Assembly: GCA_020723325.1 (NCBI GenBank)
Contig: DYJD01000021.1
Span: 62,001-126,000 of the forward strand
Length of the DNA: 64,000 bases
Source: Desulfosudis oleivorans
GTDB taxonomy: Bacteria; Desulfobacterota; Desulfobacteria; Desulfobacterales; SURF-7
Reading direction: 5' to 3'
The notes beneath the pieces are model-generated. The model saw only the letters and a list, made by a program, of their open reading frames with translations, did not search any database and was not told where the DNA came from. A program made the position numbers and the translations under genes. Positions 30,507 through 50,523 of the stretch are shown one piece after another (the stretch's first letter is position 1; each line of letters begins with the position of its first letter).

Positions 30507-30654
30507 CGTTTCCTCCTCTTCCATAATAAAAATGTTTGACTTCAAATCAGTTTTGTATTAACAGCTTGAATATATAATAATTATATTTATTGAAGAAATT
30601 GATTTGTTTATTTTTATAAACCCAAAAGATAATTTTTGTCAACATATTTTTTGC

Positions 30655-30829
30655 GTTATTGAGCGATTTCGCTCCATATCATGGGATTTCCGGTGTTATT
30701 GAGCGATTTCATTCAAATTTGCTTTCAATATGGCTACAAAATATTTGTTTTCAATTGTAATATTATTGTGTTATAGAATAGGCGATATTTTAATATTGAG
30801 TGAAATTACACCATAATATATGTTAGGGC
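30655..30829 (+). other. Presumed attI region and first recombination point
   Basis: Between the integrase start and the first cassette are two direct copies of GTTATTGAGCGATTTC (30655-30670 and 30695-30710), 40 nt apart, which may be integrase-binding repeats. The junction with cassette 1 is at GTTAGGGC (30822-30829). The surroundings are very AT-rich, and no LexA box was recognised upstream of intI. Confidence 0.6.
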
Positions 30830-30837
30830 TCAAGGTC

Positions 30838-31164: not shown

Positions 31165-31187
31165 ATATCTAAGCAGTGGCTCACTGA

Positions 31188-31282
31188 GCCCTAACAAGTC
31201 AATCAACCCGACCGCAGGGTACGGTCTTTCTCGCTTATGCATCAGCGCCTCGGCTGCGGCGGGTTATCTCCAACGTTCGGTG
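31188..31282 (+). repeat. attC site of cassette 1
   Basis: It begins GCCCTAAC and ends AACGTTCGGT. The inner arms AACCCGACCGCAG and CTGCGGCGGGTT pair with one unpaired A, the extrahelical base that orients recombination. Confidence 0.85.
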
Positions 31283-31588
31283 CGCAGGATGTGATTCCCG
31301 TTTTGAATCCGGTAGAGAGTCGTAGCAGTGGCAGTTCAAGCGGTGGGTCCCGGCGGTGTTGATCGTTCCAAAAGGTCGAGCATGCACCAAGTACAAAAGT
31401 GAGCGGCCGTCATTGTATAGAGCCCGTTCACGCTGCTTCAATTCAGGCTTTAATTGAAGCGATTACCGATTGTATCAAGGTCGATTGAGTTCACCGAACC
31501 CGGCGTTCCAGCCAACGGGCAGGAGCCGGTCGCGTCGGAGTGAAATTTGATCGTCAGCGGCGGCTCCAGCCCGTAGCTGAACTTTTCG
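31276..31588 (+). other. Cassette 2, no convincing gene
   Basis: This cassette runs from GTTCGGTG (31275) to GTTATGCC (31588). About 210 nt lie before its attC. No plus-strand frame with a ribosome site exceeds about 30 codons, and the minus-strand frames cross the attC boundary. It may be a non-coding cassette, carry a small RNA or promoter, or be a decayed gene. Confidence 0.6.
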
Positions 31589-31595
31589 TTATGCC
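31492..31595 (+). repeat. attC site of cassette 2
   Basis: It begins CACCGAAC and ends CGTTATGCC. The arms around AACGGGCAGGAGCCG and CGGCTCCAGCCCGT pair. It resembles attC 4 closely in sequence and length (about 104 nt). Confidence 0.85.
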
Positions 31596-31617
31596 TACTT
31601 GAAAAATAAGGATATAA

Positions 31618-32178
31618 GTGAAAATCAATCGTCAGTTCCAAGATTTGCATTCACCTGGTCAGAATGGAACGGACTGGTATACTATTCAGGTTGTCGAGCG
31701 CGATATCTGCCTGCTATACCATCAACTTGCAGACTACTCATATATCATGGGAGACCTTTATTACGGAGATGTTTTTGCCCTTCCGTATTGGGAATATCTC
31801 AACATCCCGAATCTTGAAACTGAACGACAAGCTTTTATCCGTAACGGCTGCCTAGTAATGCTCTATGCAATGGCTTCAGAAGTCCTCGATGGGAGTGGAA
31901 CCTATTTAACAATGGAGCGAAAGCGTTATCACGCTGCTCGGGCAGCAGTTGAAGCATTGCCCAATTTTGACGATGAGTCTAATCGATTGATAGCAGCAGT
32001 CAAAGGTTCATTTAAATTGATCGATGAAAAACGTGGGACATGGGATGATATACCTGAAGTACAAGATGTGATTTCGGAATCAACTTGGATACACGAATGT
32101 TTCGTGCGTCAGTATTTTATTGAACGTACGAATGATTTTTTCAAGAATCCATATTTCCGAAATGAAGGGCCAAAATGA
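31618..32178 (+). CDS. Cassette 3 protein, unknown function
   Basis: This 186-aa soluble protein begins with GTG behind AAGGA. It is rich in aromatic and acidic residues (DWYTIQVVERDICLLYHQLA, GDLYYGDVFALPYWEYL, WDDIPEVQDVI, STWIHECFVRQYF). It is mainly helical by appearance, with no export signal and no motif I can name. Its codon usage is more AT-rich than the chromosome's, as for other cassette genes. The attC begins 7 nt after the stop. Confidence 0.75.
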   Translation: MKINRQFQDLHSPGQNGTDWYTIQVVERDICLLYHQLADYSYIMGDLYYGDVFALPYWEYLNIPNLETERQAFIRNGCLVMLYAMASEVLDGSGTYLTMERKRYHAARAAVEALPNFDDESNRLIAAVKGSFKLIDEKRGTWDDIPEVQDVISESTWIHECFVRQYFIERTNDFFKNPYFRNEGPK

Positions 32179-32184
32179 AAAAAC

Positions 32185-32250
32185 GGCATAACCATCCGCT
32201 TGTGAGTGACGCGCAAAAAGCCGCGCGCCCCACAGCGGCGCGGTTGTGCA
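32185..32250 (+). repeat. attC site of cassette 3
   Basis: It begins GGCATAAC and ends GGTTGTGCA, about 66 nt. The arms CCGCTTGTGAGTGACGCGC and GCGCGCCCCACAGCGG pair imperfectly. It is almost identical to attC 6. Confidence 0.85.
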
Positions 32251-32272
32251 TAAAAGGAAATGATTATAAAGC

Positions 32273-32569
32273 ATGCCATTACCTTTATTGGATATACTCG
32301 CCTTCTCATTTATATTTGAACCCTTGCTATATTTGATAATTCCAAGTTTTCATGGAAAGTTGTCAACAACTGGTAAGTGCTTTCAAATAGTTGGGTTGGT
32401 CTCATTTTTAATTTCAATAATATTCTTAATCGAATCATTCTCATCCAGTAGTTATTCGGTTCTTTTGTTCATTTTATTTTTTGGAATTAGCTACATATCT
32501 GGGATTGTTTGCTTAAACCTTGACCCTGAAAGAGAGAAAAAGAAAGAAAAACGACAACATAAATTATAA
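32273..32569 (+). CDS. Cassette 4 small membrane protein
   Basis: This 98-aa protein has three probable membrane segments (about residues 5-25, 37-54 and 62-82) and a highly charged cytoplasmic tail (DPEREKKKEKRQ). No family is recognised. It has a ribosome site AAAGGAA upstream. The stop lies 5 nt before its attC. Small membrane proteins are common among integron cassettes. A role as an immunity or envelope-modifying protein would be a guess. Confidence 0.7.
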   Translation: MPLPLLDILAFSFIFEPLLYLIIPSFHGKLSTTGKCFQIVGLVSFLISIIFLIESFSSSSYSVLLFILFFGISYISGIVCLNLDPEREKKKEKRQHKL

Positions 32570-32573
32570 AAAT

Positions 32574-32677
32574 TGCACAACCAGACGCTCCAGTCAACGG
32601 GCAGGAGCCGTTCGGATCAGAGTAAAATTTGGGCAATAGTGGCGGCTCCTGCCCGTCGCTGAGCTACTTGTTCGGCA
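32574..32677 (+). repeat. attC site of cassette 4
   Basis: It begins TGCACAAC and ends TTGTTCGGCA, about 104 nt. The arms AACGGGCAGGAGCCG and CGGCTCCTGCCCGT pair well. It is related to attC 2. Confidence 0.85.
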
Positions 32678-32726
32678 AAAAACATAAGAAAATATAGAAT
32701 GAGAATAACTTAGGAGGGAGTTGGGT

Positions 32727-33374
32727 ATGTCAGAAATAGTCAAGAATAAAAAATTAAAGGACATCATCCCAATACTCTGGAGTTCATATGAGCACATGTT
32801 CGCTGTGAGAGAGACTGGTACAACAAATGGCATTAATTACTTGATGGTAGTTGCCACTTTTTTGCCGGTTTTTTGTCTTACATTATATATGGCTTTTCAA
32901 AGTATACTATTTCTAGTTCCTATTTTATTTCAAATTGCGGCGCTCTTAATCTTGTTAAAGAGGTTCTTTATCAAGGGACAGATACATTGGTTTAAATTGG
33001 AAGATACTCTATTACAACTTGATAACAATGCCTTAGAAAAATATTTGTTTGCAGAATTGAAAGCATTTGAAGATGATTCTTGGAGGCGTTCGGGAGCTTT
33101 TTCTACCATTATCAAGAGAGCATTATTTCTCTTAGTATTTTCAATATTTTTGACTTCCCTTGTATCTGCTTTTGTGTTTATGAAGGGCGATATCCAATTA
33201 TATGTGGTGACGGTATTTTTGGTAGTTGTATTTTTGCTTCTTTACTTTTTCTATAAAGAGGTTCCTGAAAATAAGTTTGAGGATGATAAACAAAGATATT
33301 TAAATGATATTAACATCTGGCTTAAAAAGAACGAGGGTGAAAGTGGTCCCGAGACAGATTCAATTACTAAATAG
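32727..33374 (+). CDS. Cassette 5 membrane protein, unknown function
   Basis: The start at ATG 32727 follows TAGGAGGG; an in-frame TTG lies at 32721. The 215-aa product has four probable membrane segments in two pairs (about residues 38-58, 60-80, 130-150 and 155-175). A cytoplasmic loop (KLEDTLLQLDNNALEKYLFA) separates the pairs, and the tail is charged. The architecture resembles SLATT-type two-hairpin membrane proteins, but I cannot confirm it. Its attC begins 30 nt after the stop. Possible roles include membrane-linked defence effectors, but nothing here proves that. Confidence 0.7.
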   Translation: MSEIVKNKKLKDIIPILWSSYEHMFAVRETGTTNGINYLMVVATFLPVFCLTLYMAFQSILFLVPILFQIAALLILLKRFFIKGQIHWFKLEDTLLQLDNNALEKYLFAELKAFEDDSWRRSGAFSTIIKRALFLLVFSIFLTSLVSAFVFMKGDIQLYVVTVFLVVVFLLLYFFYKEVPENKFEDDKQRYLNDINIWLKKNEGESGPETDSITK

Positions 33375-33404
33375 CTTTCGATATTTTGGAATAACATAGC
33401 GAAA

Positions 33405-33468
33405 TGCCGAACCACCGTGTGGAGAGGACGCGGTAAAACATTGTGCCTCTCACACGGAACGTTATGGT
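33405..33468 (+). repeat. attC site of cassette 5
   Basis: It begins TGCCGAAC and ends AACGTTATGGT, about 64 nt. The arms CCGTGTGGAGAGG and CCTCTCACACGG pair with one extrahelical G. Confidence 0.85.
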
Positions 33469-33476
33469 CCTCTAAT

Positions 33477-33833
33477 ATGAAGCTATTTAAAAAAACATTT
33501 TATTTGGTTTCTCTCTTATTCATGTTCGGATGTGCATCCACAGGAACAGATACCCATATTCGAGGAGCACTTGTCTGGAATAATAATCAGCAAACGATCA
33601 AGCCATGTGGTTCAGAAGAGATTTATTGGGTAAGAGTTCTTGCGTCAAATCCAAATTTCTTGCTCACACAAAAGGTTAAAGAACTTTCTGGTGTAGGACA
33701 CCAAGACATAATAGCCGAGTTCAATGGAGAGCTTAGCAAAGACAAAGTTACTTTTTCTCCTGGTTATCATGTTGATGGAATACTCATTGTGAATAAAACT
33801 ATTTCGGTTGAGAATGGAAATTGTTCAAAATAA
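33477..33833 (+). CDS. Cassette 6 lipoprotein
   Basis: From ATG 33477 this is 118 aa; the longer frame from 33417 runs through attC 5 and is rejected. A lipoprotein signal peptide is clear (KKTFYLVSLLFMFGCAS, lipobox FMFGC, Cys 19 expected to be lipidated). The mature part is a short beta-rich domain with two further cysteines (KPCGSEEIYWVRV and the C-terminal NCSK) that could form a disulphide. No family is recognised. It would sit in the periplasm anchored to a membrane. Confidence 0.75.
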   Translation: MKLFKKTFYLVSLLFMFGCASTGTDTHIRGALVWNNNQQTIKPCGSEEIYWVRVLASNPNFLLTQKVKELSGVGHQDIIAEFNGELSKDKVTFSPGYHVDGILIVNKTISVENGNCSK

Positions 33834-33836
33834 AAA

Positions 33837-33901
33837 AGCATAACCATCCGCTTGTGAGTGACGCGCAAAAAGCTGCGCGCCCCACAGCAGCACGTTAGCG
33901 T
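33837..33901 (+). repeat. attC site of cassette 6
   Basis: It begins AGCATAAC and ends CACGTTAGCGT, about 65 nt. It is almost identical to attC 3, differing at a few paired positions. The outer match to the cassette's own GTTATGGT has one mismatch, which may reflect recombination between related cassettes. Confidence 0.8.
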
Positions 33902-33927
33902 GATGCCATAAGACAGAAGGAGTTTGA

Positions 33928-34197
33928 TTGGATAAGCCAGATGCAATAACCAGAGGTTTTGTCAATATTGCAGCATTCCAGGAACGCTATATGCGGATTT
34001 TGCCGCCAACGACTGATCTGACCTTGCTAGTACTCAAAGGGCACCTTTTGATTGAGGAACAACTAAACTTATTTCTTGAGACAGAACTTAAACACTATTC
34101 GATTTTGAAGGACGCAAGGTTAACATTTCTTCAGAAGCTAAAAATCGTGCAATCTATGTGTTGGTTAAAAAAGGGGACAGGTAATTTTTTCAATTGA
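33928..34197 (+). pseudogene. Cassette 7 gene, 3' end cut off
   Basis: A TTG start at 33928 follows AGAAGGAG. The frame reads MDKPDAITRGFV, then FQERYMRILPPTTDL, LLVLKGHLLIEEQLNLFLE, and is cut after VQSMCWLKKGTGNFFN. The last residues come from GGGGACAGGTAATTTTTTC, a sequence often seen at the left side of REP-associated transposase genes. No attC follows, so the cassette lost its 3' part when the transposase unit arrived. The intact family has an N-terminal helical domain (GHLLIEEQL) known from other hypothetical proteins. Its function is unknown. Confidence 0.65.
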
Positions 34198-34267
34198 TTT
34201 TTTCCAAATCTCGCTCTATGTTGGCCTATATTGATAAAAGCCATCTTAAATTTAATGAGAGGTCCCT

Positions 34268-35185
34268 ATGCCGCGTATCGCCCGCATGCTCGTACACGAC
34301 CAGAAGACGGTTTATCATGTCATCTCACGCACCGCCCTGGATGGGTATCCCCTGGGGGATTTTGAGAAAGAACATTTGGTTGAACTGCTTAAAACCCTGA
34401 GCAAACAGTATTTCACCGAGATTCTTGGGTTCTGTGTCATGGGCAATCATTTCCATCTCCTCGTGCGGATAATTCCGGACCAGTATTTCTCGGATGATGA
34501 TCTTCGTAACCGATATAAAGCGGCTTTTGCCGACAAAGAATTATATGACGGCCAGATTCCACATTATCGCGACAAATGGTCGGACTTATCGGAATTCATG
34601 AAGGAGCTCAAGCAACGGTTTTCCTTGTTTTATAACAAAAGGCACCATCGGCGCGGATTTTTCTGGGGCGACCGGTATAAAAGCCTGATTGTGGAAAACG
34701 GCGAGACCTTGATCAACTGTCTAGCCTATATCGACTTGAATCCGGTAAGAGCCGGACTAGTTCAGAGACCCGAGGATTACCGCTGGTGCTCGCTGGCCTA
34801 TCATATCCAGACCGGCAACAAGGATGGCTTTCTTTCCCTTGATTTTGGTCTAGTGGAATTTGGTGAAAAGGATGCGGATGAGCGCCGGCGTTATTACCGG
34901 CGCTATGTATATGAGGCCGGCGGTTTTAAGAAACAGGGCAAGGCCGGGATGATCCGGCGCGAAATCGTCGACCGGGAGCGGAAAGATAATTTCGAACTGA
35001 ATCGCATGCGCCGGTTTTTATACCGCACCCGCTATTTTACGGATGCGGGCGTGATCGGCTCCAAGGAATTCGTAAGTGCTCATTATCAGCGTTTCAAGGA
35101 TGTCTTCATCAGTAAAAAGGAAAAGCACCCCCGGCCGATAGATGGACTTGCTTTTTACTCACTGAAGCGGCTTTCGGAAGGATAA
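34268..35185 (+). CDS. REP-associated tyrosine transposase (RAYT, Y1 type)
   Basis: This 305-aa single-strand DNA transposase has the HUH pair in GFCVMGNHFHLLVRI, the tyrosine region LINCLAYIDLNPVRAGLV, and SRTALDGYPLGD near the N-terminus. The order and length fit TnpA-REP/RAYT proteins rather than minimal IS200. It starts at ATG 34268 behind GAGAGG. It interrupts the seventh integron cassette. REP-like palindromes at 35394, 23557 and 18737 are candidate substrates. RAYTs usually do not move themselves but spread short palindromes. Confidence 0.92.
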   Translation: MPRIARMLVHDQKTVYHVISRTALDGYPLGDFEKEHLVELLKTLSKQYFTEILGFCVMGNHFHLLVRIIPDQYFSDDDLRNRYKAAFADKELYDGQIPHYRDKWSDLSEFMKELKQRFSLFYNKRHHRRGFFWGDRYKSLIVENGETLINCLAYIDLNPVRAGLVQRPEDYRWCSLAYHIQTGNKDGFLSLDFGLVEFGEKDADERRRYYRRYVYEAGGFKKQGKAGMIRREIVDRERKDNFELNRMRRFLYRTRYFTDAGVIGSKEFVSAHYQRFKDVFISKKEKHPRPIDGLAFYSLKRLSEG

Positions 35186-37355: not shown

Positions 37356-40325
37356 CTATGACCGGTATTCGGCTCTTTCAATAATCTCTATTTGCATATC
37401 CTTGTTTAGGTTCACAAAATAAGCATTATATCCAGAGATTCGAACAAGTAGATTCTTATAGTTTTCCGGATTGGCCATGGCATCTTTTAAGACATCGGAG
37501 TTTACCATGTTAAACTGAATCTGCATTCCTCCTTGCTCAAAATAGGTTTTAACATAAGAGTACATAGTGTTAACGATTTTTTCCCGTGAATCGTCTGCTG
37601 CCGGGACAAGTTTGACATTAAAGGCGATATTGTTGTCCATATTGCGAGGGTTCAGCCGGGCGACATCACGGATATTATCCAAAAAATTTTTTGAAGCAGA
37701 TGCATCCGGTGTGACCCCTGGAGAAAAATGGCGGTAGGCCAGTCTGCCGGATGGAAGCGCGCCTGAAAGCGTGCCATAGGCTACATGCTGGGCCACCGAC
37801 CAGAATCCTACTGTATAGTCACCACCGCGAAAGTTTTTGGTGGATTTATAACAACTGTGAATCAGAGATGTTACTCGGTTGGCCATTTCAACTGCCTCAT
37901 CACTGCCTGACCCGAAGCGCGAGACTTTTTTAAGTACCATTGCATGCAGGGAAGGATTGTATTGGAAGTTGGAGTCGATGGCTTCTTTTAACTCCTTGAA
38001 TGAAATTCTTTTTTCATCAAAAACCAGCTTTTTGATAACCATCAGGGAATCGACCACATCGCAAAGCCCAATGTTGAAGCTGCCGGATGTGTTGTAAATA
38101 GCCCCCCCCTTGGTTACGTCTTTTGCCTTCTGAACAGCGCCCTGAATGGCAGTACTCAGGAGGGGGGTAGGACGCAGATATGCATATGCTTCTGCCGACA
38201 TGTTGTTAAGCGCAATCGTATTGTCAATAATGAATTTCTGCTGAGCGGCAAAGGCCTTAAAAAAATCGTCAAATGTTTTAAAATCATTATTTTCCACCCG
38301 GCCTGTTTTGGGTCCAAGGTGCCAGTTCATCAACGGATGGTAGCCATTGTTTAACGCCATTTCCAATCCGGCCACCATATTGACGGATGTCGCTCCTGTA
38401 TGACTCATATGTTTACCGGATAGGGTGATTTCCACACATCCCGTTGAAGCCCAGTCTCGCAGGTCTTCAATTTTGTCGGCGTTCTGACTGAAGGCTTCGA
38501 TAACAGCATCATCATTATGCATGGAAGGTGTCGCAACGGTGATATAGTTTACTTCACACAAGCGTTTCAGAAAGGTGTCGCTGTTCACCCCGAGCTTGAA
38601 CCGGGCATTCATATTCGGATCACTCAGAGAGAGCATCTCCGTGACTTTTAAGAAAATATAGGTCATATCGTTGACCGCATCCTTGCCTTGGGGGGTAACG
38701 CCGCCCACAGTTATGGCTGTTTCGGACTGGCTTCCCCCGAACAGATAGTTTGAGACATCCGGGACAAGGGCATGGTGTTCGGCATTTCTAAGAAAATAAC
38801 AGGATATCAGTTCGAGTACATGCTCAAGATATTGTTTTTTCTCCTGCTTGGTGGATAGTTTTTTCATGTCTTTATCAAAAAACGGTTGAAACAGTTGGTC
38901 CAGGCGTCCCGGAGAAAGGGAGACGTTGGTATTCTCCATCAGAAGTCCTATCCATGAAATCCAGGCGGAATTAACAGCTTCATCCAGTGTCCGGGCGGGA
39001 TTTGCAGGAACATGCCGGCATATTCGAGAAAGTTCACTCAGCTCCGCCTTCCTTTTTAAATCGGTTTCTTTTTCAGCAAGCCTTCCAGCTTCTTGGGCAA
39101 GATTGGCGGCATATGAATTTAGTCCTTCCAGACAAAGAATCATGGATCTTAGCGTATTCAGTTTGTCCGTTTCACCTTCATCCAGTACAGCTATCTGTTG
39201 ACGGACTTCCTCAATCATGGCTTTGGTGCCGTCATTTACAAATCGTGGAAGGTCGGGAACCGTATGGGATATGCTTACGAGTTTGAAATTAAACGAAGCA
39301 ACAAAGCGTTCGTCAATTTTCTGGCAAAACGGATAATCATATTTTTCATGAATCCAGGCCCTGGTAGTCCTTTTTGCCCAGAATGGAAAGATGTCGTGAA
39401 GCTCCTGAGCCGTTTTATCGGAGATGAAATATGGTGTAAGCACCCGTTTGTCAATCGACCCCAATTCTCCCCATATAACGGTACCGGTTGTATCCGGATA
39501 GATCAGGACGCCCACTTCCTCCGGGCAGGTAGTTCCGGCAATCAGGCATTCCGGCCGGATGATGGGTTTTTTATTTTCCATCAGGTATTGAAAGGCGTGT
39601 GCCTGACGAATTTCAGAAAACCAGGGGTTACCGTTTGTATCTTTTTCAAAACCGTTTTTTCGATACCATCGCGTCAGTAGAACAGGCCTCTCGGCTGAAA
39701 TTTCAGGTGTCGTATGCAGGTGCTTTTCGTGAAGCATTTTTATTCGCGGGAATGAATCCAGGCTATATTGTGACAGATACGGATCAGTCAAATGCTTTAC
39801 TCCCGGATCAATGGTTTCGGCCTTTAATCGAAAATTTTTTCTTTTCAGAAGATCTTCTGAGAACTCCGGATTTGTTATCCCATATTCTTCTTTTCTGGAT
39901 TTCACTTCCTGCCTGTTGGCTCTTTCCAGCATTTTTTGATGCCGCTTACCCATAAGCAGCGAAACAAAGTAGTTGAATGCCCCAAGATAAGCCATGTTGC
40001 CATCAAGAATTACTTTATTTTTCAAGATGAGATTTATCGTTTCATTGGGCGTGATTTTAACCATTTCCTTTAATACGTCATCACTGATAAACCGCATGGT
40101 TGCATCAGCATGATCCGGTATGTATTTCAACACCTTTACACGACCATTTTGAAACTGTATCGCCTGCTCCACTGTTCCGTTTTCCGTTTTCAGGCCAATG
40201 GAAAAGTTGGTCCATCCGTCCGTACTATTCAGATATTTTTGTAAAGAAGGCCTGTAGTTGAATTGGGCCGCCATTAAACGAAGTGTCCAGTTGGTCAGGG
40301 TGTTCATATAATTTTTTGTGCGCAT
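37356..40325 (-). CDS. Glycyl radical enzyme with SCP2-like N-terminal domain (copy 1)
   Basis: This 989-aa protein has two parts. Residues about 15-125 resemble the SCP2 lipid-binding domain (GWTNFSIGLKTENGTVEQAI, DATMRFISDDVLKEM, LKNKVILDGNMAYLGAF). Residues about 190-989 form a glycyl radical enzyme barrel. The thiyl cysteine is C630 in STGCVEITLSG, where CxE is the pattern of radical dehydratases and lyases rather than the CC of pyruvate formate-lyase. The glycyl radical site is G965 in RISGYNAYF. The usual GREs are about 790-860 aa; the extra length is the N-terminal domain. It is the last gene of the TetR-GRE-activase-GRE operon and aligns end to end with copy 2. The substrate is unknown; the SCP2-like domain points to a hydrophobic one. 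Confidence 0.9.
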   Translation of the reverse strand: MRTKNYMNTLTNWTLRLMAAQFNYRPSLQKYLNSTDGWTNFSIGLKTENGTVEQAIQFQNGRVKVLKYIPDHADATMRFISDDVLKEMVKITPNETINLILKNKVILDGNMAYLGAFNYFVSLLMGKRHQKMLERANRQEVKSRKEEYGITNPEFSEDLLKRKNFRLKAETIDPGVKHLTDPYLSQYSLDSFPRIKMLHEKHLHTTPEISAERPVLLTRWYRKNGFEKDTNGNPWFSEIRQAHAFQYLMENKKPIIRPECLIAGTTCPEEVGVLIYPDTTGTVIWGELGSIDKRVLTPYFISDKTAQELHDIFPFWAKRTTRAWIHEKYDYPFCQKIDERFVASFNFKLVSISHTVPDLPRFVNDGTKAMIEEVRQQIAVLDEGETDKLNTLRSMILCLEGLNSYAANLAQEAGRLAEKETDLKRKAELSELSRICRHVPANPARTLDEAVNSAWISWIGLLMENTNVSLSPGRLDQLFQPFFDKDMKKLSTKQEKKQYLEHVLELISCYFLRNAEHHALVPDVSNYLFGGSQSETAITVGGVTPQGKDAVNDMTYIFLKVTEMLSLSDPNMNARFKLGVNSDTFLKRLCEVNYITVATPSMHNDDAVIEAFSQNADKIEDLRDWASTGCVEITLSGKHMSHTGATSVNMVAGLEMALNNGYHPLMNWHLGPKTGRVENNDFKTFDDFFKAFAAQQKFIIDNTIALNNMSAEAYAYLRPTPLLSTAIQGAVQKAKDVTKGGAIYNTSGSFNIGLCDVVDSLMVIKKLVFDEKRISFKELKEAIDSNFQYNPSLHAMVLKKVSRFGSGSDEAVEMANRVTSLIHSCYKSTKNFRGGDYTVGFWSVAQHVAYGTLSGALPSGRLAYRHFSPGVTPDASASKNFLDNIRDVARLNPRNMDNNIAFNVKLVPAADDSREKIVNTMYSYVKTYFEQGGMQIQFNMVNSDVLKDAMANPENYKNLLVRISGYNAYFVNLNKDMQIEIIERAEYRS

Positions 40326-40339
40326 TTTTTTCTCCTTTA

Positions 40340-41260
40340 CTACTCCATAAGAATACCCGCATCCGTATAGAGCTTTTTACATATTTTTACCCGATCGCCT
40401 TCCATCCACTCCCCCATCTTGTTTCCACTGTTTGAGGGTGGTTTTATACCGATTTTCTGATTTTTGTCCTGCCATAAGGGATGGTATGGCATGAGTTGTG
40501 TTTTGTTCACATTTTCTTCCCTGAAGAGTGATATGATTGCGGAGAGATTTTCGTTTGTATCGGTAATATCCGGGATTAACGGAGTTCTTGGCAGAATTTC
40601 CACTCCGCCTTCCTGAAACTTCCGATAAAGCCTTTTGAAATTTTCAAGAATGGTTTCATTGGAAAGACCGCAGTATTTTTTATGAATGCGGCTGTCCATA
40701 ATCTTGATGTCAAAATAGATCAGATCCACATAGGGATATACAAGATCCATAAAGGTTTCGTAGCGAAACTGTCCGCAGGTTTCAATCAGGACATGAACAC
40801 CTTTCTCTTTCAGGACTTTTGCAGCTTCTGCTAAAAACAGCATGTAAAGTGTTGGTTCTCCACCTGAAAAAGTCACTCCGCCTTGAGAGGTGTCAAAAAA
40901 AGGTTTGTCCTTGAGTACTTTTTCAACAAGCACCGAAATAGTCATCTCCCGGCCAACCTTCTCCATCGCGCCTGAAGGACAATCTGTCACACACGCAAAG
41001 CATAAGTTGCACCGTGTTCTGTCGATAAAAAATGGATTTTCTCTTGAAAGTGCATTGTCTGGACAGGTTTTCAGGCATGTATTGCAGCCCACACATTCGT
41101 TTGAATCAAATGAAATCTCAACAATCGCTTTTTTGCTTTCCGGATTATGGCACCAGATGCACGAAAGAGGGCATCCTTTAAAAAAAACAACCGATCGGAT
41201 TCCCGGGCCATCATCCAGCGAGTTTCCCTTTATCTCAAGTATTAATGGATTTTTGCTCAT
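40340..41260 (-). CDS. Glycyl radical enzyme activating enzyme (radical SAM)
   Basis: This 306-aa radical SAM enzyme should install the glycyl radical in its partners using S-adenosylmethionine. The SAM cluster motif is GCPLSCIWCHNPES (C-x3-C-x2-C), preceded by DGPGIRSVVFFKG. A ferredoxin-like insert carries two further 4Fe-4S motifs (CVGCNTCLKTCP and CNLCFACVTDCP), usual for activases of non-PFL glycyl radical enzymes. Then come TFSGGEPTL, the GGE motif, and VLIETCGQ. Its start overlaps the stop of copy 2 by 4 nt (41257-41260), and its stop lies 14 nt before copy 1. One activase therefore probably serves both enzymes. Confidence 0.95.
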   Translation of the reverse strand: MSKNPLILEIKGNSLDDGPGIRSVVFFKGCPLSCIWCHNPESKKAIVEISFDSNECVGCNTCLKTCPDNALSRENPFFIDRTRCNLCFACVTDCPSGAMEKVGREMTISVLVEKVLKDKPFFDTSQGGVTFSGGEPTLYMLFLAEAAKVLKEKGVHVLIETCGQFRYETFMDLVYPYVDLIYFDIKIMDSRIHKKYCGLSNETILENFKRLYRKFQEGGVEILPRTPLIPDITDTNENLSAIISLFREENVNKTQLMPYHPLWQDKNQKIGIKPPSNSGNKMGEWMEGDRVKICKKLYTDAGILME

Positions 41261-44223
41261 AAACCGTATTCTGTCCTCTCTATCAGCTCCAACTGCATTT
41301 CTCTGTTCAGGTGTACAAAATAGGCGTTATATCCGGATATCCGCACCAGTAGGTTTCTATATTTTTCGGGATTGGCCATGGCATCTTTCAAGACAGTAGA
41401 ATTCACCATGTTAAATTGGATCTGCATACCACCCTGCTCAAAATAGGATTTTACATAGGAATACATGGTATCGACAGTTTTTTCGCGGGTATCCTTGGCA
41501 GAAGGAACGAGTTTAACATTAAAGGCAATATTGTTGTCCATGTTCCGCGGATTCAGACGGGCGACATCCCGCATGTTGTCCAGGAAACTGTTTGATGCGG
41601 ATGGGTGGGGGGTTGCTCCGGGAGCAAACGGTTTATAGGCTTTCCTGCCCGAAGGAAGCGCGCCTGACAACGAACCATAGGCAACATGTTGTGCCACTGA
41701 CCAGAAACCGACAGTGTAGTCTCCTCCTCGAAAATTTTTAATGGATTTATAGGAATCATGTATCAGGGATGTCACCCGATTGGCCATTTCGACAGCCTCA
41801 TCACTGCCTGAACCAAATCGCGGCACCTTTTTCATTACCATGGAATGGAGTGCCGGATCATGATCAAAATCGGTGTCAATGGCCTTTTTTAAATCTGTAA
41901 ACGTTATTTTCTTCTCGTCATAAACGAGCTTCTTGATCACCATCAGAGAATCCACTACATCGGAAAGACCAATATTGAAACTTCCTGACGTATTGTAATG
42001 AGCTCCGCCCTTTGTAACGTCCAGTGCGTTGTCAATTGCCCCCCGGATGGCGGTACTCAGAAGCGGTGTCGGGCGCAGGTATGCATAGGCCTCTCCAGCC
42101 ATATTGTTGAGTCTGGTGGTGTTTTCTATGATAAATTTCTGCTGCGCAGCAAAGGCGGTAAAGAAATCCTCGAAGGTTTCAAAATCGCCCTTTTCCGGAC
42201 AGCCTGTTTTGGGTCCCATATGCCAGTCCATCAGAGGGTGGTAACCGTTGTTCATTGCCATTTCAAGGCCTGCCACCATATTGATCGATGTCGCACCGGT
42301 ATGACTCATATGTTTGCCGGAAAGGGTTATCTCCACGCATCCTGTGGCAGCCCAGTCCCGTAAATCTTCCATCTTGTCGGCATTCTGGCGAAAAGATTCG
42401 ATTACAGTGTCGTCACAGTGCATGGAAGGTGTTGCCACGGTAATGAAATTCACTTCACAAAGCCGTTTCAGGTAAGTGTCGCTGTTCACCCCAAGTTTGA
42501 ACCGGGCATTCATGTTCGGATCATTCAGAGAGAGCATTTCCGTTACCTTTAAAAAGATGTAGGTCATGTCGTTGACCGCATCCTTGCCGTCAGGAGTAAC
42601 CCCGCCGACAGTGATGGCGGTTTCGGACTGACTGCCCCCGAACAGATAATTGGCCACGTCAGGTACCAGATTGTAATGCTCTGCATTGGCCATAAAGAAG
42701 CAGGAGATCAGTTCAATGGCATTTTCGATGTATTCCTTTTTCTCCTGCTCACCGGTGATCTTTTTCAGATCACTCTCAAAGAAGGGCTGGAAAAGCTGAT
42801 CAAGCCTGCCGGGGGAAAGTGAAACATTATTGTTTTCCATCAGAAGTCCGATCCAGCAGATCCAGGCGGAATTTACCGCTTCGTCGAGAGTTCTGGCAGG
42901 TTTGGCCGGAACATGACGGCATATCTCCCGGAGCTTTTCCAGTTCTGCCTTTCTTTTTGGATTTTTTTCCGTTTCTGCAAGTTTGCCGGCCTGGTCGGCA
43001 AGATTGGCCGCGTATGTGTTCAGGCCTGCCAGACAGATGGTCATGGCGTGTAAGGTGTTGATCTTATCTGTCGCTTTGCCATCTATATGTTTCATTCTTT
43101 CCTGGATCTCATCCAGTATTTGATTTGTTCCTTCCTGAACAAACCGGGGCAAATCCGGCACCGTGTGAGACATGCTGACGATTTTAAAATTAAAGGATGC
43201 CACGGCACGTTCATCGATCTTCTGGCAAAGCGGATAATGATATTTTTCCCGAATCCATTCCCGTGTGGTTCTTTTTGCCCAGAATGGAAAGATATCATGC
43301 AGTTCGGCTGCTGTTTTTTTCGTAATGCGACTGGGACAAAGAATCCTTTTTTCAATGGAATTGAGTTCTCCCCATATCATTGTTCCGGTTGTGTCCGGAT
43401 ATATAAGTACTCCTTCTTCTTCCGGCGTGCAGGTTCCGGCCAAAAGGGTGTCCGGACGAATGACTGCTTTTTTATTTTCCATCAGGTATTTGAATGCATG
43501 TGCCTGCCTGAGTTCGGGAACCCATGGTTTGCCGACCTGATCCTGCTCAAAGCCGTTTTTTCTGTACCATTCTGTGAGAAGCACAGGTCTTTCGGAAGAA
43601 ATCTCAGATATCGCTGCAAAATGTTTTTCATGAAGCTTTTTGATCCGCGGAAAGTCTTCCAAGCCATACTGGGGGAGGTAGGGATCATTCAGGTGTTTCA
43701 CGCCGGGATCTTCTTTTTTCCCCTTCATGCGGTAGGTTTTTCTTTCAAATAGTTCCGTTGACAATTGAAGCTTGTTTAAATCGAATTCTTTTTTTCTTGA
43801 ATTCTTATCCTGTTTTTTTGCCCTGTTCAGCATTCTTTGGTGTATTCCGCCCATCAGAAGAGAGGTGTAGTAATTAAATGCCTGCAGATACCCCATATTG
43901 CCATATAGAATAATTTTATTTTTTAAAACCAGATTCAACATCTCATTCGGAGTGATTTTAACAACTTCCTTCAAAACGCTGTCATCCACAAAATGCATTA
44001 TGGCATCGGCATTTCCCGGAATATCATTCAAAACAGTGACGCGCCCATTCAAAAAAACGATTGCCTGTTTCACACTTCCGGACGCCGTTCTCAGACCGAT
44101 CGAAAAGTTTGTCCACCCGTCATGGCTTTTCATCTGTTTTTTCAATGAAGGACGAAGATTGAATTGCAATGCCATCATCCACAGCGCCAGATGAGTCAAT
44201 GGATTTAAAAGATTGATATTCAT
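41257..44223 (-). CDS. Glycyl radical enzyme with SCP2-like N-terminal domain (copy 2)
   Basis: This 988-aa paralogue of copy 1 has the same domain order: SCP2-like segment (GWTNFSIGLRTASGSVKQAI, DAIMHFVDDSVLKEVV), barrel, thiyl C629 in ATGCVEITLSG and glycyl radical G964 in RISGYNAYF. The two copies are alike throughout, including active-site flanks, and differ mostly in the N-terminal domain and in the linker at about 130-210. That pattern suggests tandem duplication followed by divergence of the substrate-gating part, or two subunits of a heteromer. It lies 14 nt after tetR and is the first enzyme gene of the operon. Radical chemistry implies strictly anoxic activity. Confidence 0.9.
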   Translation of the reverse strand: MNINLLNPLTHLALWMMALQFNLRPSLKKQMKSHDGWTNFSIGLRTASGSVKQAIVFLNGRVTVLNDIPGNADAIMHFVDDSVLKEVVKITPNEMLNLVLKNKIILYGNMGYLQAFNYYTSLLMGGIHQRMLNRAKKQDKNSRKKEFDLNKLQLSTELFERKTYRMKGKKEDPGVKHLNDPYLPQYGLEDFPRIKKLHEKHFAAISEISSERPVLLTEWYRKNGFEQDQVGKPWVPELRQAHAFKYLMENKKAVIRPDTLLAGTCTPEEEGVLIYPDTTGTMIWGELNSIEKRILCPSRITKKTAAELHDIFPFWAKRTTREWIREKYHYPLCQKIDERAVASFNFKIVSMSHTVPDLPRFVQEGTNQILDEIQERMKHIDGKATDKINTLHAMTICLAGLNTYAANLADQAGKLAETEKNPKRKAELEKLREICRHVPAKPARTLDEAVNSAWICWIGLLMENNNVSLSPGRLDQLFQPFFESDLKKITGEQEKKEYIENAIELISCFFMANAEHYNLVPDVANYLFGGSQSETAITVGGVTPDGKDAVNDMTYIFLKVTEMLSLNDPNMNARFKLGVNSDTYLKRLCEVNFITVATPSMHCDDTVIESFRQNADKMEDLRDWAATGCVEITLSGKHMSHTGATSINMVAGLEMAMNNGYHPLMDWHMGPKTGCPEKGDFETFEDFFTAFAAQQKFIIENTTRLNNMAGEAYAYLRPTPLLSTAIRGAIDNALDVTKGGAHYNTSGSFNIGLSDVVDSLMVIKKLVYDEKKITFTDLKKAIDTDFDHDPALHSMVMKKVPRFGSGSDEAVEMANRVTSLIHDSYKSIKNFRGGDYTVGFWSVAQHVAYGSLSGALPSGRKAYKPFAPGATPHPSASNSFLDNMRDVARLNPRNMDNNIAFNVKLVPSAKDTREKTVDTMYSYVKSYFEQGGMQIQFNMVNSTVLKDAMANPEKYRNLLVRISGYNAYFVHLNREMQLELIERTEYGL

Positions 44224-45262: not shown

Positions 45263-45862
45263 TTAATTCTTTAAATTTGTTGGACTGTATAGCGGTTTGC
45301 CGGTAACAATGTACCAAACGCCGATCGCGAATGCCATCAGAGCAAAGAGTAGAATTCCAACCGGAATAAAGAAGCCGATTTTCCAGTTCGCCACTACCCA
45401 TAGTTTTTTGGAGGAGACTTGATTGTCAGCGATAAAATCCTTAATGGTAAACTTGACATCCTCCAAACTATGGGGAGAGATGTGAACCTCCACTTGCCCG
45501 CCTCTTTTCCCTTTGAGAAACAATACCCCCTGTGCTTCCGTGTGGTGAGAATACTTGCCGTGTTCCCGGACAGGTTTACCGTCGATGGTTCGGCTGGTCG
45601 GATCCTCCAAGTCGGTCAGTTGATGTCGAAAAACAGGCACGATCAACAAAAGGTTCTGGTTCACCACCGCATCAACCTTCCCGGATTCGCTGCGCGTCAA
45701 TTGGATGGTAAAGGCGGGAACGATAAAGGTGATGATAATCCCCGGGATGCAAAACACAATCATGGCTCCCCAAAACGCCCGAAGAATCTGTAGCGGAATG
45801 GGACCTTTCTTTTTCAGCTTCTTGTTTTGACGCTGCTGTTCCATTTCCTTGTAAACATTCAT
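45263..45862 (-). CDS. Two-pass membrane protein, unknown function
   Basis: The start at ATG 45862 follows AAGGAGTCGT at good spacing; a longer frame reaches 45949 but lacks a ribosome site. The 199-aa product has a basic N-terminus (KKLKKKGPIP), a membrane segment at about residues 25-48, an external domain (about 50-155, with RTIDGKPVREHG and QVEVHISPHSLEDVKFTI), and a second membrane segment at about 165-188. It probably faces outward. No family is recognised. It stands apart from neighbouring genes. Confidence 0.7.
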   Translation of the reverse strand: MNVYKEMEQQRQNKKLKKKGPIPLQILRAFWGAMIVFCIPGIIITFIVPAFTIQLTRSESGKVDAVVNQNLLLIVPVFRHQLTDLEDPTSRTIDGKPVREHGKYSHHTEAQGVLFLKGKRGGQVEVHISPHSLEDVKFTIKDFIADNQVSSKKLWVVANWKIGFFIPVGILLFALMAFAIGVWYIVTGKPLYSPTNLKN

Positions 45863-46005
45863 ATACGACTCCTTGATAAAAGAAGAACGAATAAATCTAT
45901 CCAACAGATTTTCCAAGCATGGATACCTAGGACGGCAGGAGAATCGCATGTGAACTTGGTACGGAATGTGCGGAAATTAAATATCAACATTTCATCAATC
46001 GAATA

Positions 46006-46304: not shown

Positions 46305-46316
46305 GTACATATGTAC
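46305..46316. promoter_or_regulatory. Palindrome GTACATATGTAC, possible FabR-like operator
   Basis: A perfect 12-bp palindrome lies 104 nt before the wax ester synthase gene, within AGTACATATGTACGCA. E. coli FabR recognises a site of similar form (AGCGTACA...TGTACGCT). A FabR-like regulator is encoded downstream in the same operon, so autoregulation through this site is a reasonable inference. Confidence 0.45.
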
Positions 46317-46419: not shown

Positions 46420-48777
46420 ATGACCGAAACCATGAGCACCATAGACCATTTCTGGTATCAATTGGATCATGCCCGAAACCCCATGGCCATCACCGCATTG
46501 TTTGAATTCGATACCCCCCTTGATGCAGAACGGTTGCGCAACACAATCGAACAGCGTTGGCTGCGCTTTAACCGCTTTCAACATCGGGTTTCCCAACCTT
46601 TTCCAGGTATCGGCAGACCCAAATGGGTTTCTGACCTGGGTTTTAATTTACGTTCCCACATTCATCGAGCGGCCTTGCCGTCTCCCGGCGATAAAAAAGC
46701 GCTTCAGGAAATGATCGGCGATTTGGCCGCCACTCCCTTTGACCATTCCAAACCCTTGTGGCAAATTCACCTGATTGAAAATTACGGCAGCGGTTGCGCT
46801 GTCTTTTGGCGGATCCATCATTGCATCGCCGATGGCATTGCCTTGATTCATGTTCTGCTGGCCATGACTGATGATGCAGCCGATGCTTCGCGCCCTGTAC
46901 CGGACGCCTTTTTTCCTCTGCCATCCAAGGAAACAATTCTGTCCAAAATGATCAAATCAGCGGCCCAGACCAAAACAAATGTATTTGCCGGGCTTGAGAC
47001 AGTCTTTGACAAGACCCGCCGTCGCCGGTTTGTCCAACAGGTGGCTGAGACAGCCACCATTCTGGAAAAACAAATCCGGATGTCGCCGGATCCAAAGACC
47101 GCGTTCAAAGGGGAACTAAGTTCCCGCAAGGATGTTGCCTGGAGTGATCCGCTGCCCATATTCCAGGTAAAAGCCGCCGGCAAAAGCCTCCAGGCAACCG
47201 TCAATGATGTGCTGATAACCGCCATCAGCGGCGCACTCAGACGCTATCTGATTGAAAAGGATAAACCGGTTGCCGACCTTGATCTGCACATCTCCATGCC
47301 GGTCAATATCCGCAAGGCCGGCATGGAATATGAACTGGGAAACAAATTCGGGGTTGTTTCACTGGCCCTGCCCATGGCGATTGAAGACCCGATTGAACGC
47401 CTGAAAGAGATCACCAAACGGAATAATAAGATTAAAAAGTCGGTGGAACCGCTTCTCAGTTATCAGATCCTAAAGACATTAGGCGCTGCACCTGGAATGA
47501 TCGCCAGGCAGGCTGCGAATTTCTTCGCCAATAAAGGCACGGCTGTGTTGTCCAACGTCCAGGGCCCCAAACAACCGGTGTATTTTGCCGGCAATAAAAT
47601 CAAAAACATGATGTTCTGGGTGCCGCGTTCAGGCGATATTTCCATGGGGATCAGCATCCTGAGTTATGCTGACGGGGTGTCTGTGGGCATATCCTCAGAT
47701 GCCAATATCATTTCAGAACCCCAACAGCTCATCGATTATTTTAAGGAGGAAATCCAATGCCTTTTTGATTTGTCGGCAAATCCCAAAAAGGTGGGCCTGG
47801 GCATGCGTCCCTCAACTCGTGACGGGCTGAAAAATAGTCCCCAAAAGCCATCGCAAAAAAAAGTTACCAAAACCAAGCGCGGCCTTTCAACGGTTCTCAA
47901 CCTGGGAATCCGTTCCATGCCCTTTGATGAACTCACACGCAAATACATGCAAAAAGACTCAAAATTCATCAACATCAACGGAACAAAGGTGCACTATTGC
48001 GACCAGGGCAGCGGACCGGTTCTGCTGCTTCTGCACGGGATTCTTTCCTCGCTGCACACCTGGGACGCCTGGACCGCACTGCTTTCACCCCATTATCGGA
48101 TTATCCGCTTTGATCTGCCGGGCTTTGGATTGACCACCCGCTTGCAGAGCGCCCCTTACAGTCGCGATCTTTTCCTTGATTTTCTGAATCAATTCGTTGA
48201 AACCCTTGGACTTGAACAGATCGATATCGCCGGAAATTCCATCGGCGGTTATCTCGCCTGGAATTATGCCATGCAATACCCGGAAAAGGTGAACAGACTG
48301 CTCCTCATTGACGCGGTGGGCTATCCTCAAGACCTGCCCCGAATCATGAACTTTGTAAATGCACCGTTGATTCGAAACATTGCCGGCCATATGGCCCCTT
48401 GGATTTTCTTTGAACAAAGCGTTCGCTCCATATACGGCGATAAATCAAAAGTGACCGACCAAGTCATCGCGCGCTACTATGATATGGCATCCAGCTCAGA
48501 GAATCGCGGCGCATATGTGGATGTGCTGCGGCTCCTCAAAAACCAATGTGATTCAAAAGCCCTTTGCAGCGGCATCGATACTATAAAATCAAAAACCTTG
48601 CTGATGTGGGGTGAAAAGGATCCTTGGGTTCCGGTGGAAATCGTCAAAAACTGGGAGCGCGATCTTGTTTCATCCCAGACAATAATATACGATGGCGTCG
48701 GGCATTTGCCCATGGAGGAAATTCCACGGCAAAGCGCAAAAGATGCCCATCTTTTTTTGCAAAAAACCGGGATTTAG
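46420..48777 (+). CDS. Wax ester synthase/DGAT fused to an alpha/beta hydrolase
   Basis: This 785-aa protein has an N-terminal WS/DGAT domain (residues 1-460). Its acyltransferase motif HHCIADG (H133-G139) and further family blocks MPVNIRKAG, GNKFGVVSLALP and LSNVQGPKQPVYFAG are visible. A basic linker (about 465-505) leads to an alpha/beta hydrolase (about 515-785). That domain has oxyanion strand LLLLHGI, nucleophile S607 in GNSIGG, acid D734 in WGEKDPW and base H762 in GVGHLP. The first domain should esterify fatty alcohols or diacylglycerol with acyl-CoA; the second could hydrolyse the product or an acyl donor. It is the first gene of an operon with a TetR regulator. Confidence 0.92.
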   Translation: MTETMSTIDHFWYQLDHARNPMAITALFEFDTPLDAERLRNTIEQRWLRFNRFQHRVSQPFPGIGRPKWVSDLGFNLRSHIHRAALPSPGDKKALQEMIGDLAATPFDHSKPLWQIHLIENYGSGCAVFWRIHHCIADGIALIHVLLAMTDDAADASRPVPDAFFPLPSKETILSKMIKSAAQTKTNVFAGLETVFDKTRRRRFVQQVAETATILEKQIRMSPDPKTAFKGELSSRKDVAWSDPLPIFQVKAAGKSLQATVNDVLITAISGALRRYLIEKDKPVADLDLHISMPVNIRKAGMEYELGNKFGVVSLALPMAIEDPIERLKEITKRNNKIKKSVEPLLSYQILKTLGAAPGMIARQAANFFANKGTAVLSNVQGPKQPVYFAGNKIKNMMFWVPRSGDISMGISILSYADGVSVGISSDANIISEPQQLIDYFKEEIQCLFDLSANPKKVGLGMRPSTRDGLKNSPQKPSQKKVTKTKRGLSTVLNLGIRSMPFDELTRKYMQKDSKFININGTKVHYCDQGSGPVLLLLHGILSSLHTWDAWTALLSPHYRIIRFDLPGFGLTTRLQSAPYSRDLFLDFLNQFVETLGLEQIDIAGNSIGGYLAWNYAMQYPEKVNRLLLIDAVGYPQDLPRIMNFVNAPLIRNIAGHMAPWIFFEQSVRSIYGDKSKVTDQVIARYYDMASSSENRGAYVDVLRLLKNQCDSKALCSGIDTIKSKTLLMWGEKDPWVPVEIVKNWERDLVSSQTIIYDGVGHLPMEEIPRQSAKDAHLFLQKTGI

Positions 48778-48817: not shown

Positions 48818-49513
48818 ATGGCATCGCGTGAGGAAATCATTGCACAAAAAGAAAAAACCAGCCTGGCCCTGACGCAAGCAGCCCTTTCGCTTTGCGCCGA
48901 ACAAGGATTTGCGAGCCTGAGTTTGCGCTCGGTGGCCCGCAAGGCCGGGATTGCCCCGACATCCTTTTACCGCCATTTTCGCGATATTGATGAACTGGGC
49001 ATATCCATGGCCCTGGATGCTAAAAAAATTCTAGACGAATGTTTGAACAATATCCGCCAACGCATTGAATTCTCTTTGGCACAGAAATCGGAGTCCAACC
49101 AAGATTTGCATGGGGCCGTGGATGCTTTTGTGGCTCCGTTTGCCGAGATATTGATGGAGTGTTTTAAAACCCATGCCCATCTTATCCGCCTGTTCTTTCA
49201 AGAACGCACCGGCAGCTCGTCGGCTTTGCGCAGCGCGATTTCCAATGAAATGGAAAAACTCATCGGTTTTCTGTCGGAAGACCTCGCCCGCCTCTCGCTT
49301 TCAATAGGAAGGCCCATCCCAGAAATCCGCCCGCTGGCGGAAACCATGCTGATCATCATCATGGCAACCGGCATGGAAAAAATGCTGAACCCTGAAAGCA
49401 ATGATGAAACGAGCTCAACCGCCATGAAGCAAAAGCTGAAACTGCTTTTCATCGGGGCAATCAACCAGGAAACACCGGCCCCGATACAACCTTTACAGGA
49501 AAATCCGGCATGA
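48818..49513 (+). CDS. FabR-like TetR-family regulator
   Basis: This 231-aa regulator has an N-terminal helix-turn-helix (residues about 15-60, LSLRSVARKAGIAPTSFYRH) and a C-terminal domain with FFQERTGSSSALRSAI, as in FabR, the repressor of unsaturated fatty acid synthesis. It would sense acyl-CoA or acyl-ACP. It lies 40 nt after the wax ester synthase gene and overlaps the next gene by 4 nt (ATGA). This places lipid-responsive control in the operon. A GTACATATGTAC palindrome upstream of the operon is a candidate site. Confidence 0.88.
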   Translation: MASREEIIAQKEKTSLALTQAALSLCAEQGFASLSLRSVARKAGIAPTSFYRHFRDIDELGISMALDAKKILDECLNNIRQRIEFSLAQKSESNQDLHGAVDAFVAPFAEILMECFKTHAHLIRLFFQERTGSSSALRSAISNEMEKLIGFLSEDLARLSLSIGRPIPEIRPLAETMLIIIMATGMEKMLNPESNDETSSTAMKQKLKLLFIGAINQETPAPIQPLQENPA

Positions 49514-50523
49514 ATGCTCCCATTAAAAAATTATTCGAGGCCCATGTGAAGCATGAACTGAACCGTTTCAAGAAGGGCGGATATAAACAGACCATAGAAG
49601 AAGAAGTCTCGGCGGCCTTTGAATGGATCCGGAAAGTCAAATTCAAAGATATTGTGCCCCTGGATCGCATGCTGGGCCTGATTCAACGCAATGTTGTCGA
49701 GCGGCCCATTCCCGGCGCAATCACGGAGCTGTCCGGGGAAATGAGCCGCCTGGTGCATGCCTCTGAACAAAACAATACCACTTCGCTGGAGGATATTTTT
49801 TCGCGACGTCAGTTCGATGAAATCATCGACAAGGCCGTCAGTCTGAAAACCGCCCGAAATAAAATCGTTCATAGTTTTTTAAACAGTCCATTTTACTCCA
49901 AGCTGATTTCACATGTGCTCTATACGGGAATCCGCGAGTACTTGATAACGGAAAATATCATCGCCCAAAACGTGCCGGGTGTTTCGTCCCTGATCAAAAT
50001 GGGGAAAAATGCCGTGCATTACACCATACCCGCGCTGGAGCAAGCATTTGAAAAACGAATCCGCGGCTTCATCGAAAGCAATTTGAAGAACTCCATCCTG
50101 AGGAGCGAACGCTTTGTCAAGGAATTGCTTGTCGAAAATCAAATCATCGAAATGGGCGAGGAGATTTGGGAGTCCATTTCCAAAGAACCATTGTCCGAAT
50201 ACTTCGACTTCATCAACGGCGATGATATGGAAGATTTCATCCTTACCGGCTACGATTTTTGGGGTCATTTCCGGAAAACAAGTTATTTTCAAAAAATTTA
50301 CACCGAGATCGTCCAGCATTTCTATGAAAAATACGGCGATGAAGACCTGGATATTTTCATCGAGGATGTGGGGGTGACCAAGGAAATGCTTGTCCATGAG
50401 CTGACGGAACTGGTTTCCCCTGGTGTTGAAAAAGCCCTTGCCATCGGCTATGTGGAAGAACGCATCCGGGCCAGATTGTGGTCGTTCTACGGTTCAAAAA
50501 AAGCTTCGAAAATTTCGATTTGA
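49510..50523 (+). CDS. Unknown protein of the wax ester operon
   Basis: This 337-aa protein starts by overlapping the TetR gene (ATGA). It is almost entirely helical, with amphipathic segments (LFEAHVKHELNRFKKGGYKQ, LNSPFYSKLISHVLYTGIRE). It has no signal peptide and no obvious membrane span, though about 140-185 (VLYTGIREYLITEN, IPALEQAFEKRIR) might bind a membrane. No catalytic motif is recognised. Being coupled to a FabR-like regulator and a wax ester synthase, it may be a lipid-droplet or acyl-transfer accessory protein, which is inference only. Confidence 0.8.
   Translation: MNAPIKKLFEAHVKHELNRFKKGGYKQTIEEEVSAAFEWIRKVKFKDIVPLDRMLGLIQRNVVERPIPGAITELSGEMSRLVHASEQNNTTSLEDIFSRRQFDEIIDKAVSLKTARNKIVHSFLNSPFYSKLISHVLYTGIREYLITENIIAQNVPGVSSLIKMGKNAVHYTIPALEQAFEKRIRGFIESNLKNSILRSERFVKELLVENQIIEMGEEIWESISKEPLSEYFDFINGDDMEDFILTGYDFWGHFRKTSYFQKIYTEIVQHFYEKYGDEDLDIFIEDVGVTKEMLVHELTELVSPGVEKALAIGYVEERIRARLWSFYGSKKASKISI

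Follow-up and report, generated by a model that had tools for sequence, protein, structure and literature searches.

WS/DGATs are the makers of bacterial wax esters and triacylglycerol, and to our knowledge the release and recycling of these lipids are much less settled than their synthesis. A gene in the 64-kb window (the whole stretch of DNA that was analysed) joins a predicted ester-forming domain and a predicted ester-cleaving domain in a single polypeptide. The excerpted text of one paper (PMC10351704) gives the accumulation of wax esters or triacylglycerol as having had no report in Deltaproteobacteria. The fusion and the gene cluster to which it belongs point to a hydrolase as partner and to candidates for the regulator and its operator. 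This gene context suggests that ester making and ester recycling are coupled, and the regulator looks like a fatty-acid sensor.

Two enzyme domains in one open reading frame

The gene occupies positions 46420..48777 (+) and consists of one open frame of 785 aa that starts with ATG, contains no internal stop and ends exactly at position 48777. Its N-terminal half matches both Pfam domains of the WS/DGAT family, with WS_DGAT_cat (PF03007) at residues 5-264 (46432..47211, +; 133 bits, cut-off 23.6) and WS_DGAT_C (PF06974) at residues 307-446 (47338..47757, +; 138.5 bits, cut-off 20.7). The NCBIfam model TIGR02946 is also passed by the fusion (375.2 bits, cut-off 309.95). The catalytic motif of wax ester synthases (WS) is present as HHCIADG at residues 133-139 (46816..46836, +) and aligns with the same motif in the solved WS/DGATs 7nxg and 6chj, as do the stretches PLW, ND and SNVQGP, which we take to be family motifs. 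When 33 stand-alone WS were used to define columns conserved at 95% or more (36 unfused rows from outside the gene module described below, less three divergent ones), the window WS half was found to retain 95 of the 109 columns.

The WS half is followed by a basic linker at about residues 449-505 (47764..47934, +), as evident by its composition (12 K/R versus 4 D/E over residues 447-505). The AlphaFold model of the fusion is poor (mean pLDDT 50), with values below 50 at residues 455-506, and the relative facing of the two sites is not readable from it.

An alpha/beta hydrolase (ABH) domain makes up the remainder of the protein, from about residue 506 to residue 785 (47935..48774, +), and Abhydrolase_1 (PF00561) matches residues 533-767 with 101.3 bits (cut-off 25.8). 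The putative nucleophile Ser607 lies in GNSIG (48238..48240, +), the putative acid Asp734 in EKDPW (48619..48621, +) and the putative base His762 in GVGHL (48703..48705, +), and each is invariant in 17 of 17 aligned ABH sequences, that of the window included. The C-terminal half thus carries both the fold profile and the Ser-Asp-His residues that place it in the ABH superfamily. Fifteen closer relatives, taken from 32 ABH rows, define 51 columns conserved at 93% or more, and the window protein retains all except one (50/51). None of the NCBIfam equivalog cut-offs is reached by this half; its match to OlsI is weak (34.4 bits, cut-off 385).

The sequence-only reading of this DNA had described a WS joined to an ABH in one chain, with catalytic residues kept on both sides. 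Both points are borne out by the uninterrupted frame, by the Pfam and TIGR02946 scores above cut-off and by the positions of HHCIADG, S607, D734 and H762. The fusion is real as well as rare, and judged by sequence both halves are apparently functional.

A separate feature was noticed among the unfused WS. The C-terminal tail of 25 of 37 such rows (e.g. L047:5564-7243) carries a Cys/His motif, C..(.)T..G..C...[YF]C..H, for which no Pfam family was found in the one tail tested; the motif is absent from both fused WS.

Distribution and origin of the fusion

A second copy of the fusion was found in G211, a separately assembled genome from another family (f64) of the same order. The copy (G211:C315) is an open frame of 687 aa that is cut by the contig end and lacks its N-terminus, yet it is 54% identical to the window protein over residues 90-781 and carries both HHCIADG and the triad residues. 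The WS halves of the two proteins are 48% identical and the ABH halves 65%. Downstream of it lie homologues of the same TetR regulator and then of the same 337-aa protein that follow the fusion in the window. Because this second fusion was assembled separately and has the same two downstream genes, a sequencing error or artefact is unlikely, and a two-ORF artefact is ruled out by the single frame together with the fusion in another genome.

Such an arrangement is scarce. The genome that contains the window (7.2 Mb, 113 contigs) holds the fusion once, along with two other WS, of 43 and 48% identity, and an ABH (46%) encoded on its own, and it is the only one with the fusion among 59 genomes searched as relatives, itself included. 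Searches that scored no more than the two or three best candidates of each genome, such that a weak fusion could escape, recovered the fusion in 2 of 389 genomes of the class (our genome and G211), in the same two genomes of an order set of 389 that overlaps heavily with the class set, in 1 of 345 genomes of the same phylum (our genome alone) and in 0 of 398 genomes of another phylum, that of an alphaproteobacterial locus. Among plasmids, 534 records match part of the fusion query, in none of them over 80% of its length at one place; identity to the window WS is about 24-29% for the WS of the plasmid records listed. Stand-alone WS of the order share at most 51% identity with the window WS over most of their length. 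A scan of genome contigs with exact short patterns, which is weak evidence of absence, yielded three relatives and no fusion, and in pattern-limited scans of viral contigs neither the fusion nor the 337-aa protein had a relative.

Several long frames were considered as further fusions and rejected. The frames of L096 and L097 (657 and 1013 aa) are stand-alone WS with open sequence upstream, and that of G417 (659 aa) is actually a WS of 529 aa. In G726 (534 aa) the stretch of about 220 residues ahead of the ABH has no match to WS, and the additional sequence carried by the WS of L072 (795 aa) and L073 (773 aa) has none to the ABH.

Among the open-licence papers listed by the searches, none describes a fusion of a WS with a hydrolase in its title or in the opening of its abstract. 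The joining of an ester-forming and an ester-cleaving domain had been called unusual in the sequence-only reading, and for WS/DGATs the description holds in these surveys (2/389 genomes of the class, 0/398 in the other phylum). However, it does not extend to acyltransferases in general, as evident by the excerpted account of plant and algal phytyl ester synthases (PES), in which an unrelated acyltransferase domain and an ABH share one chain (PMC12526585).

Trees were examined for both halves. The WS tree (39 rows) groups the window with G211 and the lone WS of G035:C251 (99/95), and the remaining stand-alone WS fall outside this clade. At 1.28 versus 0.20 for G211, the branch of the window is long, and given this length the function of the window WS domain may have shifted. 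The ABH tree (32 rows) unites the window and G211 with two ABHs that are not fused, those of G049 and G260, in one clade (100/99), with G211 beside G260. Because the WS tree pairs G211 with the lone WS of G035 while the ABH tree pairs it with the lone ABH of G260, the history may comprise either a single fusion that was later split or two fusions.

A regulator, a conserved companion and a putative operator

Two genes follow the fusion on the same strand. The first begins 40 bp past the fusion and encodes a TetR regulator of 231 aa (48818..49513, +; Pfam TetR_N). It scores 126.4 bits against the NCBIfam FabR model (NF008402), below the cut-off of 151, and because of this score we term it only ‘FabR-like’. 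The second, whose ORF overlaps that of the regulator by 4 bp, encodes an uncharacterised protein of 337 aa (49510..50523, +), here called the DUF. There is no Pfam family for the window protein and no credible PDB match for the family profile; a match to HRD3 (E 0.06) was taken as chance, and the AlphaFold model (mean pLDDT 36.6) is too poor for a fold search. What is new here is that a gene pair for a FabR-like TetR regulator and a DUF stands behind the fusion and, in relatives, behind a DAGAT-type acyltransferase.

The DUF family occurs in 32 of 389 genomes of the class. We read 32 DUF loci from 30 of these genomes, several of them cut by contig ends; G004 and G185, which have partial matches, were left out. 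A TetR homologue adjoins the DUF gene in 25 of the 32 loci. In 12 of the 32 loci the TetR-DUF pair is preceded by a gene for a protein that we call U314 and by one for a DAGAT-type acyltransferase. The latter was identified by Pfam as PF03982 in L139 (53.9 bits, cut-off 22) and in L148, and the other DAGAT-type proteins of the module are at least 67% identical to that of L139. The WS-ABH fusion occupies the acyltransferase place in 2 of the 32 loci, and no stretch read holds both a WS and a DAGAT in the module.

U314 (L139:2956-3900 and relatives) is a highly conserved protein of about 314 aa whose gene lies ahead of the DAGAT-type gene in all 12 such loci. By eye it looked like an acyltransferase, an assignment that found no support (20% probability in a profile comparison with DAGAT, and no credible PDB or Pfam match). 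It was not found in G000, G211, G035, G049 or G260.

Separate hydrolase genes also occur within the module. In 4 of the 12 DAGAT loci (L142, L162, L074 and L075) the DAGAT and TetR genes enclose one for an ABH that shares 46-48% identity with the fused ABH, and in L162 and L075 its ORF has an 8-bp overlap with that of DAGAT if the first start codon is taken. The pairing is not obligatory, because the other 8 DAGAT loci have none of this ABH in the stretch read. Other loci have different arrangements: in G035 (L050) a distant ABH (22%) lies between TetR and the lone, divergent WS of the fused clade, in G049 (L041) a divergent ABH stands alone beside TetR-DUF, and L152, L153 and L159 have distant ABHs (28-29%). 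The stretch of G260 has no TetR-DUF match beside its unfused ABH. With G066 as positive control (two matches), PF03982 has no match in the contigs of the window's own genome or among the Pfam matches of the fusion protein; G049 has a single match, on a different contig, and G000, G211, G035 and G260 have none, although the absence is weak for G211 (80% complete) and G260 (74%). From this distribution, the acyltransferase and the hydrolase look like a functional pair in which the acyltransferase was exchanged and fused.

A putative operator for the FabR-like regulator, the palindrome GTACATATGTAC (pattern GTACANNTGTAC), lies at 46305..46316, 104 bp before the fusion start. FabR is reported, in the excerpted text of PMC4804515, to have ACAnnTGTnnnnT as its core and unsaturated thioesters as its ligands; the palindrome of the window holds ACAnnTGT of this core, and the outer T of the published version falls outside the scoring. 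The pattern was found by a palindrome search in the same upstream regions in which it was then counted, such that the counts are no independent test, except that its single match in the 64-kb window is judged against shuffles of the window itself (0.01 expected). Upstream sequence is available for 15 module units, and in 12 of these the pattern lies 19-193 bp ahead of the first gene, namely in 10 of the 13 with an acyltransferase gene and in both units of the ABH-containing kind (L152 and L153). For L075 this count takes a U314 start later than that of the longest ORF, which places the operator upstream. No exact copy exists in L145 or L074, which have near matches of 13 of 16, and none was found in the 217 bp upstream of the L141 unit or in the ABH/TetR gap of G049 (score 9 of 16). 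Outside the module, the pattern occurs once in 553 kb from 101 loci, some of which overlap.

Possible roles of the joined active sites

The closest solved relative of the ABH half is PlaF (6i8w; 5.5e-41 in a PDB profile search), with the Ser, Asp and His residues aligned. The excerpted text of PMC9132575 describes PlaF of Pseudomonas aeruginosa as a membrane phospholipase A1 with an N-terminal transmembrane-juxtamembrane anchor and a catalytic part in the periplasm. Unlike this protein, the fused ABH comes after the linker behind a WS domain, and the sequence ahead of it contains no strongly hydrophobic segment. Mean hydropathy exceeds 2.0 in a segment at the N-terminus of 8 of the 17 aligned ABHs (L025, L027, L042, L043, L044, L046, L077 and L083), whereas the window, G211, G049, G260 and five other ABHs are without a strongly hydrophobic N-terminus. 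From the lack of such an N-terminus, compared with membrane-anchored PlaF, we infer that the fused hydrolase should act in the cytosol, alongside acyl-CoA and storage lipid.

With moderate confidence, we favor the explanation that the protein is a cytosolic two-site enzyme for acyl recycling. The N-terminal half would transfer acyl groups from acyl-CoA to an alcohol or to diacylglycerol, as predicted from its family. In the same compartment, the C-terminal half would remove acyl groups from an esterified lipid, which may be a glycerolipid, a monoacylglycerol or a wax ester. Acyl chains freed by one half could then be re-activated and stored by the other. The operon is probably controlled by the FabR-like regulator through GTACANNTGTAC, and would respond to acyl thioesters. 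Relatives apparently divide the same paired job between two proteins, a DAGAT-type acyltransferase and a hydrolase, whereas in the window protein a WS/DGAT would have taken the place of this acyltransferase and been joined to the hydrolase. This explanation is suggested by the motifs and most family-conserved columns in both halves, by the G211 fusion and the WS clade, and by the DAGAT/ABH pairing and the operator. Against it stand the unfused nearest ABHs of G049 and G260, the latter without TetR-DUF, as evident by which one chain, and even the module, is not needed everywhere. A coupling of lipid storage to release had already been raised in the sequence-only reading, and that part of its proposal fits the gene context (TetR-DUF, DAGAT/ABH pairs and operator).

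We weighed four alternatives to acyl recycling. Two independent enzymes may have been joined only for equal dose or co-localisation, with sites that have no metabolic coupling. This is unlikely in our view, though it deserves serious attention: the long linker may allow flexibility, DAGAT and ABH are separate genes in relatives, of which 8 of 12 DAGAT loci have no such ABH, and the ABH is unfused in G049 and G260. However, the fusion is found in two families with the same downstream genes, and acyltransferase and hydrolase genes are paired in four further loci. An assembly error or a decaying gene, for which the low count of 2 in 389 genomes of the class and the long WS branch could speak, is almost inconceivable given that the fusion recurs, together with its downstream genes, in a second genome, and given the motifs and columns conserved in both halves.

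The other two alternatives concern the chemistry. WS/DGATs use acyl-CoA, and this argues against a true transacylase, in which the ABH serine would take an acyl group from a glycerolipid and pass it to the WS acceptor without acyl-CoA. A contact between the two sites is likewise unsupported, the AlphaFold model being uninformative. Some ABH proteins are named acyltransferases, the window ABH has its weak match to OlsI (34.4 bits versus the cut-off of 385), and PES, which combine ABH and acyltransferase, are credited in the excerpted text of PMC12526585 with making phytyl esters and triacylglycerol; even so, we consider this possibility, which the sequence-only reading had also raised, improbable. 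Less probable still is that the ABH is a thioesterase or a small-molecule hydrolase (e.g. C-C bond, MCP-type), with the link to lipid coming from the WS half only. Meta-cleavage-product hydrolases are close behind PlaF in the PDB search (1j1i, 6.3e-37) and the domain reaches no equivalog cut-off, but its best solved relative is a phospholipase, and its close relatives lie beside DAGAT in four loci and are fused to WS in two, among neighbours that are mostly untyped by family searches.

Comparison with known systems places the acyl-recycling proposal in context. Bacterial WS/DGATs (TIGR02946; 7nxg, 6chj) share both Pfam domains, HHxxxDG and the aligned PLW, ND and SNVxGP stretches with the window protein, in which, unlike in these enzymes, a complete hydrolase comes after the C-terminal domain. 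A C-terminal lipid-related addition also exists in Bacteroidota WS/DGATs that end in SCP2, according to excerpts of PMC10351704; however, SCP2 binds and transfers lipid, whereas the domain added in the window protein is an enzyme. The same two enzyme kinds occur together, but as separate genes, on Woeseia scaffolds (same excerpts) and on a Sphingomonas paeninsulae plasmid, in each case with a WS/DGAT gene near an ABH gene.

As portrayed in the accessible text of PMC12526585, PES join an ABH fold and a DAGAT domain in one chain, and the phytyl esters that they make are fatty acid esters of phytol. The fusion is a bacterial parallel to these enzymes, whose lipase activity is there only postulated. 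Their acyltransferase is a DAGAT (PF03982) located C-terminal to the ABH, unlike the WS/DGAT (PF03007) located N-terminal in the window protein, and PES are best regarded as an analogue that may work similarly, not as the same architecture or membership. For BrPYP, the excerpted text of PMC9111173 reports that the pale-petal allele naturally lacks 35 aa of the ABH part. Tentatively, and with clearly less confidence, we extend the acyl-recycling proposal to a fatty-acyl-responsive system for neutral-lipid editing, in which a FabR-like sensor and the DUF would operate with an acyltransferase-hydrolase pair. The acyltransferase could be of DAGAT type or, by non-homologous replacement, a WS/DGAT fused to the hydrolase, in which case a single polypeptide would move acyl groups from membrane lipid to stored lipid or back, as a bacterial counterpart of plant PES. 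We found no description of such a system in the accessible text of the open-licence papers searched.

Other features were observed in the window. Divergent from the fusion is a gene for a 228-aa protein (45263-45949, -) with membrane-like segments by eye and no Pfam match above cut-off. Farther upstream, two glycyl-radical enzymes that are 74% identical (37356-40325 and 41257-44223, both -) lie on either side of an ORF that by eye is activase-like (40340-41260); both are extended at the N-terminus by about 190 aa, and the one extension tested matches no Pfam family. Two ORFs that by eye resemble an integrase (29520-30545) and a transposase (34268-35185) flank a stretch within 29520-35185 in which G+C drops to 37% at 32-34 kb.
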